Shown: positions 2,089 through 46,597 of the stretch, in pieces
Layout of the letters: every line of letters begins with the position of its first letter
Position numbering within the stretch: the stretch's first letter is position 1
Assembly: GCF_026810365.1 (NCBI RefSeq)
Contig: NZ_CP113948.1
Span: 3,373,001 to 3,437,000, forward strand
Length of the DNA: 64,000 nt
Origin: Flavobacterium praedii
Lineage (GTDB): Bacteria; Bacteroidota; Bacteroidia; Flavobacteriales; Flavobacteriaceae
Reading direction: 5' to 3'
Program-made: the position numbers and the translations under genes
Notes under the pieces: generated by a model
What the model was told of the DNA's origin: nothing
Database searches by the model: none
Seen by the model: the letters and a program-made list of their open reading frames with translations, nothing else

Positions 2089-2196
2089 CATTATAGTAAG
2101 TGGGCAACTTTAGACCCCGCTTATTCGCCCACTTTCCATAATGCGGTCGGGCTCTCCACGCTACTTCGGTAGCTAGTTCCTATCCCTTTCGCGAAC
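2089..2196 (+). repeat. Two-hairpin intergenic element, family A copy 1
   Basis: The first stem is 2089-2105 with 2127-2143 (15 of 17 positions pair). It is followed by GCGGTCGGGCT (2143-2153), then a perfect hairpin GCTAC-TTCG-GTAGC (2160-2173), then a tail with CTATCCCT. Three related elements occur at 16542, 41813 and 50491. The rest of the 485-bp gap between gdhA and the next gene holds only the terminator and a possible -7 box (TATATTTG, 2296-2303). Confidence 0.75.
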
Positions 2197-16497: not shown

Positions 16498-16541
16498 TAT
16501 TTATATCCCATTTCTTTTCAGAAGAATTTGGGCAAGACCAC

Positions 16542-16647
16542 AATAAAAAATGGGGCTACTTTGCATACGTGCTAGTGGCCCCATTTTTTATTGCGGTCGG
16601 GCTGTATGCGCTACTTCGGTAGCCAGCGTCCATCCCTCTTGCGGTCG
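16542..16647 (+). repeat. Two-hairpin intergenic element, family A copy 2
   Basis: AATAAAAAATGGGGC (16542-16556) pairs perfectly with GCCCCATTTTTTATT (16578-16592). GCGGTCGGGCT (16593-16603), the hairpin GCTAC-TTCG-GTAGC (16610-16623) and a CATCCCT tail follow. It sits between convergent lspA and the 5-formyl-THF cyclo-ligase gene. Confidence 0.8.
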
Positions 16648-37910: not shown

Positions 37911-38093
37911 TTATTTGAAGTATAAGGAGCTTTTTCCAGCTGTACACTATATTCCCAATTAACAAAAACTACGACAAAAAAGTTTTGTTTTTCTAAATCG
38001 GGAGATGCCGTTTCCATCTGGGCTAGTCAGTGCATCAAAGATATTCATTTATTTTTTAACAGTTCCGTTGTTCCATTTTTTTCAAAACGTTTT

Positions 38094-41731: not shown

Positions 41732-41812
41732 TTGATCCGATTTATAAAATGTAAAAAAACTTTGTTTAGTAATAGATTTGGGATAGCTTTTCAATCCTAA
41801 TTATTGGGGCGT

Positions 41813-41920
41813 GACTCTGTTGAGCAAAGGGGCTTACATACAGTGCCGCTTATACAGCCCCTTTACTCAACAGAGTCGGGCTATCACGAGCGCACGGCGC
41901 CTTGCTCTATCCCTCACGCA
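41813..41920 (+). repeat. Two-hairpin intergenic element, family A copy 3
   Basis: The stem 41813-41834 (GACTCTGTTGAGCAAAGGGG, then CT) pairs with 41856-41877, 21 of 22 positions. GTCGGGCT (41875-41882), a second weaker hairpin and CTATCCCTCACGC follow. It splits the minus-strand ATP-grasp cluster. The rest of the gap to 42249 shows nothing I can name. Confidence 0.8.
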
Positions 41921-42249
41921 AAATGACGTTAAGTTTAGATATTTTAGATTAAGGATTGCCGATTTTTTATGACAGAGCTTGTCTTGCTAAATATTTGATT
42001 GTCAATTTCACAACCATTTTTATATCTGTTGTCAAAAAGCGTAAATCAAAAATCTGCTATCATTTTATCCTTAACTTTATCAAATTGCCTCGGTAAACCC
42101 CATAAATCATCAGCTCCTAAATAGTTGCGAGTTCATAATGATTGGAGAATAGTGCCTAAATGATGCTCTATTTTAACATTTGTAGATAATAGGCTCCACA
42201 ATTGATTCTATTATAGATTCTATAATAGCAGCTTGATTTTCAATTTGAC

Positions 42250-46024: not shown

Positions 46025-46098
46025 CTCCCTCTCTTGGGCTCGAACCAAGGACCCTCTGATTAACAGTCAGATGCTCTAACCAACTGAGCTAAGAAGGA
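46025..46098 (-). tRNA. tRNA-Asn (anticodon GTT), copy 1
   Basis: The 74-nt cloverleaf reads on the minus strand. Acceptor TCCTTCT pairs with AGAGGGA, the D-arm contains AGCTCAGTTGGTTAGAGC, the anticodon arm CTGACTGTTAATCAG has GTT in the loop, and the T-arm is CTTGG-TTCGAGC-CCAAG. CCA is not encoded. Confidence 0.95.
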
Positions 46099-46523: not shown

Positions 46524-46597
46524 CTCCCTCTCTTGGGCTCGAACCAAGGACCCTCTGATTAACAGTCAGATGCTCTAACCAACTGAGCTAAGAAGGA
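46524..46597 (-). tRNA. tRNA-Asn (anticodon GTT), copy 2
   Basis: Identical to copy 1 over all 74 positions, with the same arms and GTT anticodon. It has its own promoter and terminator. Confidence 0.95.

Follow-up and report, generated by a model that had tools for sequence, protein, structure and literature searches.

What is the folded sequence that recurs between the genes of Flavobacterium praedii? The question is raised by a 64,000-nucleotide stretch of its genome (NCBI RefSeq assembly GCF_026810365.1, contig NZ_CP113948.1, positions 3,373,001 to 3,437,000), termed the window in what follows. A first-pass annotation, made from the letters alone, had reported four intergenic copies of a non-coding two-hairpin element here, thought it a candidate for an undescribed element, and proposed a REP-like repeat, a termination or processing element or a small RNA. 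The four copies are all present at the reported places: the pattern GTCGGGCT-N15..40-ATCCCT matches the window at exactly these sites and never in 100 shuffles. Each is intergenic and encodes no protein, and on either strand each folds better than all 200 of its shuffles.

The architecture had to be revised. Folding and covariation of 34 F. praedii copies, namely the four in the window and 30 of the 49 genome-wide matches to the pattern, reject the two-hairpin form for a three-way junction of 34 base pairs, in which an outer stem P1 (GCGTG/CACGC) closes both arms. On the strand as read the order is ATTT-GG-P1(GCGTG)-P2 arm-TC-P3 arm (GGGCTAT..hairpin..CTATCCC)-P1(CACGC). The outer stem had been missed (in copy 1 it pairs GCGAAA at 2080-2085 with TTTCGC at 2187-2192, with equivalents in the other three), and the reported start at 2089 lies 9–15 bases too late. 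The reported change of the second hairpin from GCTAC/GTAGC in copies 1 and 2 to GTTAC/GTAAC in copy 4 is real; copy 3 differs from the other three in this hairpin (GAGCGCACGGCGCC). The features of the window are listed here, with the scores of our covariance model, R1, for the four elements.

2074 to 2197, read on plus, folding strand minus (plus in the first-pass annotation): copy 1, the whole three-way junction, 120.7 bits
2080 to 2085: copy 1, one arm of outer stem P1 (GCGAAA on plus), partner 2187 to 2192; two-sided changes in 4 of the 5 modelled P1 pairs
2086 to 2146: copy 1, long arm P2 with its loop; two-sided changes in all 17 of 17 modelled P2 pairs
2149 to 2186: copy 1, arm P3 (GGGCT...TTCG hairpin...CTATCCC), a Flavo-1-like module on the minus strand
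2187 to 2192: copy 1, other arm of P1 (TTTCGC on plus), partner 2080 to 2085; the same 4 of 5 pairs
16526 to 16647, read on plus, folding strand minus: copy 2, whole element, 109.7 bits; P1 is GCAAGA/TCTTGC
37929 to 38028, minus: stand-alone copy of Flavo-1 (RF01705), a relative of arm P3, 47.7 bits (gathering score 42)
41803 to 41924, read on plus, folding strand minus: copy 3, whole element, 112.7 bits
50486 to 50609, read on minus, folding strand plus: copy 4, whole element, 125.1 bits
50609 to 50635: repeat of 27 bases, TTTACTTCGTCAGTTCGCAAAAGCTCG on minus, fused to copy 4 at a fixed distance from the element (G000:3423609-3423635)

The window also holds two tRNA genes (46025-46098 and 46524-46597, minus strand) that score equally, at 66.8 bits, and lie some 500 bases apart; a recent duplication may have produced them.

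Across the 4,168,457-base genome (G000) the exact pattern has 49 matches, against none for a reversed-pattern control. A covariance-model search of this and related genomes, which the first-pass annotation had suggested, bore out compensatory changes genome-wide. With 150 of 810 first-look candidates scored, at least 73 matches in this genome reach 73 bits or more, 71 of these strong copies scoring at least 97 bits; the remaining matches among the 150 have at most 46.7 bits, and many are the opposite strand of the same places. None of 40 copies of this genome lies inside an ORF of more than 100 amino acids. The element is a roughly 115-base, dispersed, high-copy, non-coding intergenic repeat.

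At an E-value of 0.001, 30 of the 36 other genomes of the genus and 5 of 23 of the same order have a match. Among 296 genomes drawn from the phylum, with 11 candidates scored per genome, scores above 60 bits are confined to the genus, and nine genomes outside it have one to three weaker matches each, of at most 47.6 bits. Restriction of the element to the genus is ruled out by locus L162, from another family of the order (genome G037, with 8 matches), which has the conserved junction words, a paired P1 and a long P3 variant at 47.5 bits; by this copy, the element family reaches beyond the genus. One query each found no copy on plasmids or on phages.

Several variants were seen along the way. 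A short-P2 form occurs between genes in genome G120 (L361-L367, e.g. CCCCTTCGGG). Long-P3 forms L353-L357 (genomes G204, G131, G029) lie about 430–720 bases from contig ends, and their partly similar flanks suggest a region present in several copies, perhaps preceding rRNA operons; several further variants also have a long P3. Outside the element, a repeat GTCATTAAGTTAAGCTTTGTTTTTTCTCGCCAAGACGC directly follows two different copies, L020 and L022. Among 77 copies, a weak motif AAACAAGATATTT lies at a variable distance, about 10–20 bases, past the CACGC end, and AAAATCATTT immediately precedes GGGCG.

Whether the element is new has a two-part answer. The whole element is absent from Rfam at gathering scores, and no window copy reaches the Flavo-1 gathering score; four other copies, searched against Rfam at E-values up to 1, gave no Flavo-1 and only sub-threshold matches to unrelated families. 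The one Flavo-1 match in the window is the stand-alone copy listed above, between two divergent ORFs. The short arm, on the other hand, has the hallmarks of that motif. P3 and Flavo-1 share, on the same strand, a ladder of three pairs, a 1×1 loop, two pairs, a 3×3 loop, two pairs and a variable hairpin, with similar internal-loop words (GATAG and GGATAGC); 82 of 101 element copies contain GATAG on the complement, and 13 of 21 Flavo-1 copies contain it in their 5′ part. Two intermediate copies of the long-P3 type, from two other Flavobacterium genomes, are matched by both models on opposite strands of overlapping sequence: L359 (R1 61.0 bits, Flavo-1 59.3 bits) and L360 (62.2 and 64.5 bits).

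Both families belong to the same genus and have many copies per genome, with Flavo-1 at no fewer than 65 places in F. praedii (all 65 scored places). Their counts, taken as lower bounds and uncorrected for relatedness, correlate over 60 genomes (Spearman 0.88) and over 37 genomes of the genus (Spearman 0.75); the one exception is G055, with 5 element matches and no Flavo-1. Flavo-1 is modelled as a single hairpin, whereas here it is one of three arms, and its model has neither the long covarying arm P2 nor the outer stem P1. The view that P3 is a Flavo-1 module, and the three-armed element a sister of Flavo-1, is well supported by these sequence comparisons. What is new is the larger three-armed architecture, and what is known is the related orphan motif. 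We found no description of the three-armed element in the literature, supplements (including those of PMC2864571) aside. Passages of PMC12306157 count palindromic elements in two Flavobacterium genomes and passages of PMC3733652 report CGTC repeats in Bacteroidetes, and these may include copies of the element without a name.

The first-pass annotation had taken the paired changes as selection for structure, and three sets of comparisons uphold this. In the 34 copies, which were selected by sequence pattern without use of structure, 95.1% of base-pair cells are paired, where shuffling gives 79.0% and sliding the structure no more than 48.5%, and 26 of the 34 pairs have two-sided changes. In a set of 101 model-aligned copies the figures are 97.4% and 31 of 34; these were the best-scoring of the loci fetched with the model, so that their pairing is somewhat selected. 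The third set uses orthologous sites. Of 30 loci from relatives, 20 were flank-matched among the fetched copies of this genome and 18 were counted, L282 (window copy 1) and L291 being omitted. In these 18 comparisons at 11 loci, which share copies and are not independent, 492 pairs are unchanged, 91 are changed on both sides and still paired, 26 are changed on one side and 2 otherwise. Thus 91 of 119 changed pairs are compensated, where slid controls give 0 to 8 compensated pairs and 148 to 173 single changes. The structure is under strong constraint.

This constraint is strand-asymmetric. The first-pass annotation had correctly noticed that a mismatch in copies 3 and 4 becomes G-T on the opposite strand, and this bears on the choice of strand. 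Among 3,427 base-pair cells of the 101 copies, 3,328 are Watson–Crick, and on the strand as read 47 are A·C, 11 are G·T (p=2e-6) and 41 are other. The A·C excess holds at 17 pair positions against 2 with the opposite tendency (sign test, p=0.0007) and, after clustering at 80% to 53 representatives, by 21 to 5. The test is conservative, because training on the strand as read inclines the model towards G·T there. Since an A·C on the strand as read corresponds to G·T on its complement, it is the complement that folds, although a mutational asymmetry tied to one strand could contribute to the excess. RNA folding agrees: of the 101 copies, 77 recover more than 90% of the junction pairs when the complement is folded and 32 when the strand as read is folded, with mean junction energies of −39.3 and −35.7 kcal/mol respectively. 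The strand as read, from which the element had been described, is thereby ruled out as the functional strand. The cTTCGg loop, which is present on the strand as read, would be unusually stable as RNA.

A fold kept on one strand may point to RNA. On this explanation, read-through or a dedicated promoter yields a transcript of the complementary strand, which acts as an RNA in processing, stability or regulation; Rfam makes the same assumption for Flavo-1. The G·U-type tolerance and the better RNA folding both fall on the complementary strand, as this would have it; the structure is kept at orthologous sites of 11 loci; and weak-scoring copies are few by the counts above, in which decayed copies are maybe under-represented because 150 of 810 candidates were scored. 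Transcriptional context speaks the other way. Sigma-A boxes are not enriched on either strand relative to letter shuffles, and we reject an own promoter and disfavour the small RNA gene that had been proposed. The genes flanking 40 copies of this genome have unbiased directions, the classes counting 13, 9, 9 and 9. Among 25 copies from relatives, with orthologous sites counted repeatedly, 19 of 24 genes past the CACGC end are directed away from the element (p=0.007), so that neighbours there are mostly antisense to the folding strand; pooled with this genome the figure is 37 of 64 (p=0.26). A role at mRNA 3′ ends was rejected on the unbiased directions in this genome, although a co-oriented upstream gene often stops within 45 bp of the element and the relatives have the one-sided bias. 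Weinberg et al. (2010; PMC2864571) list Flavo-1 as a non-cis motif, and a F. psychrophilum transcriptome, in passages of PMC9723704, has this sister motif sense or antisense alike, with many copies outside transcribed regions.

Replication gives no bias either: 33 copies lie in one direction and 40 in the other, taking dnaA at 4.146 Mb and an assumed terminus, and p ranges from 0.06 to 0.48 across five assumed terminus positions. A replication-strand bias was rejected on this basis. The lack of bias in gene direction and replication, together with the lack of sigma-A boxes, argues against an mRNA element or small RNA gene and for a strand-specific fold acting at the DNA level, as in REPs. We consider a structured RNA possible but on balance unlikely.

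If the fold works as DNA, is the element mobile? Two copies 8.8 kb apart are 98.2% identical within unrelated flanks (20% and 17% identity), and the shared sequence runs from TTTGGGCG to CACGCA, which would therefore be the ends of the unit unless one copy converted the other. That copies spread as a unit ending at P1 is well supported, with one clear pair, which could instead reflect conversion of an existing copy. Many sites are old and common to related species. The nearest named genomes, by one protein (96–97%), are F. aquariorum, F. taihuense and Flavobacterium sp. A45; all three also have the element at the site of window copy 3, and F. aquariorum has it at that of copy 4. Other sites vary: one copy of sp. 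A45 is missing at the same place in F. praedii, F. aquariorum, F. taihuense and sp. HJJ, another is missing at its site in F. aquariorum, and a third site has, by eye, an apparent decayed copy in sp. A45. There was no clean empty site; at sites A and B, without the element in some relatives, the flanks differ too, so that insertion and deletion are indistinguishable.

Within the unit the two arms assort independently between copies. Similarities of P2 and of P3 are uncorrelated over 47 copies of this genome (Spearman 0.05, p=0.27), and where two copies have the same 41-base P3 block, their P2 stems resemble each other no better than those of random pairs in 7 of 8 comparisons (0.57–0.72; random mean 0.65), the one exception having a P2 similarity of 0.90. 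The few single-sided steps at orthologous sites suggest exchange of blocks between copies rather than stepwise compensation.

Old shared sites and independently assorting arms would also suit a repeat that organises the chromosome or insulates transcription, like BIMEs, which the host keeps and gene conversion homogenises but which no longer moves, and copy spacing not different from random (KS p=0.57) fits this as well. The strand asymmetry speaks against it, and so does the near-identical pair, whose unrelated flanks hint at recent spread, although such a pair could arise by conversion too; we regard this explanation as improbable. Least probable of all is that the element is a MITE in decay, derived from a DDE-type insertion sequence, with its terminal inverted repeat in P1 and with covariation as mere shared ancestry of hairpin-rich sequence: a discrete unit with short inverted ends and many intergenic copies would fit, but target duplication is unconvincing (9 of 101 copies against 2.4 expected, over 3 bases only, as the best of 144 offset tests), compensation at orthologous pairs far exceeds that of the slid controls, and a double-strand substrate gives no reason for strand asymmetry.

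A REP-like repeat, one of the options first proposed and borne out here as a leading one, would call for a transposase. The genome encodes a single TnpA_REP, its only match to PF01797, which matches NF047646 (REP_Tyr_transpos) at 97.4 bits with a cut-off of 80:

G000:C1 1568895-1569503: REP-associated tyrosine transposase (L186), flanked on both sides by short repeats of the GTCGGAGAC type and on one side by repeats of the TTTACTTCGTCCGTTCG type

It has the motifs NHIH and WQ and a HuH–Y distance of 83. Passages of Quentin et al. (2018; PMC6006769) place in subclass 2.6 enzymes of Bacteroidetes with NH[LIV]H, WQ and a median HuH–Y distance of 82, flanked by 'atypical secondary structures' without GT[AG]G. 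Most sequence features of the enzyme fit this subclass, and its Y motif, YMHLNP, does so less cleanly, being nearer the subclass 2.1 form than YIH[QN]NP.

A link between gene and element is offered by the 27-base repeat fused to copy 4. It occurs at 17 places in this genome at up to 3 mismatches, 3 of them within 4.2 kb on one side of the TnpA_REP gene and 4 abutting the three-armed element at one fixed spacing. At up to 4 mismatches it accompanies 3 copies of the 101-copy set and 6 of 7 rows added by hand, and by eye the Flavo-1 copy L408 is followed by a sequence similar to it. The element itself does not border the gene in this genome, its nearest copy being about 1.85 kb away, and for this reason it was rejected as the end of the gene's own unit. 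Of 20 Y1_Tnp loci, each taken together with up to 1.5 kb of flank in either direction, a single one has a match exceeding 20 bits (G001, 39.4 bits, 0.8 kb from the gene). As to co-occurring transposase genes, which the first-pass annotation had proposed to look for, F. praedii has its one enzyme, but element matches are also present in 4 of the 5 genomes of the genus that lack a Y1_Tnp hit (G004 with 18 matches, G016 with 12, G011 with 4, G012 with 1).

Our best reading, held at a little less than an even chance, is that of a REP-like, non-autonomous structured repeat. The folded complementary single strand would be the substrate of an enzyme acting in trans, and the fold would be kept because a copy unable to fold would be neither duplicated nor repaired from another. 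The enzyme in question may be the one TnpA_REP of the genome; this is the weakest step of the scheme, and we hold it lower than the REP-like reading itself, as a candidate on incomplete evidence.

The element resembles REPs and REPINs with their TnpA_REP (RAYT) enzymes in being high-copy, intergenic, non-coding and foldable on one strand in a genome with a tnpA_REP gene, and in that a short repeat also found near this gene is fused to some of its copies. It differs in size and plan: REPs are one short hairpin, of 21–65 nt in passages of PMC6006769, and the element is far larger, at about 115 bases in three arms. Nor, in an alignment inspected by eye, has it the canonical GT[AG]G foot, its conserved word on the strand as read being GTCG, and in this genome it does not border the gene. 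IS200/605 elements favour the lagging-strand template; the element, at the assumed terminus, is unbiased. ERIC, RUP, BOX and other MITE-like bacterial repeats are likewise short, intergenic, mobile and strongly folding. The element is set apart from these by its strand-asymmetric three-way junction, its independently assorting arms and the lack of a clear target duplication.

A wider proposal, which we offer as speculative and rather doubtful, is that Flavo-1 and the three-armed element form one modular, strand-specific class of structured mobile repeats in the Flavobacteriales. Its members would be not small RNA genes but repeats whose arms are swapped between copies and whose folded single strand would be the substrate of the Bacteroidetes group-5 (subclass 2.6) TnpA_REP enzymes.

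The work connects Flavo-1, an orphan 'RNA gene' of Rfam, with a larger dispersed repeat, for which the folding strand and the likely ends are given. The nature of Flavo-1 and the targets of the Bacteroidetes TnpA_REP enzymes thereby become testable in laboratory Flavobacterium. Repeats seldom evolve in this manner, with arms that assort independently while their pairing stays near-perfect.
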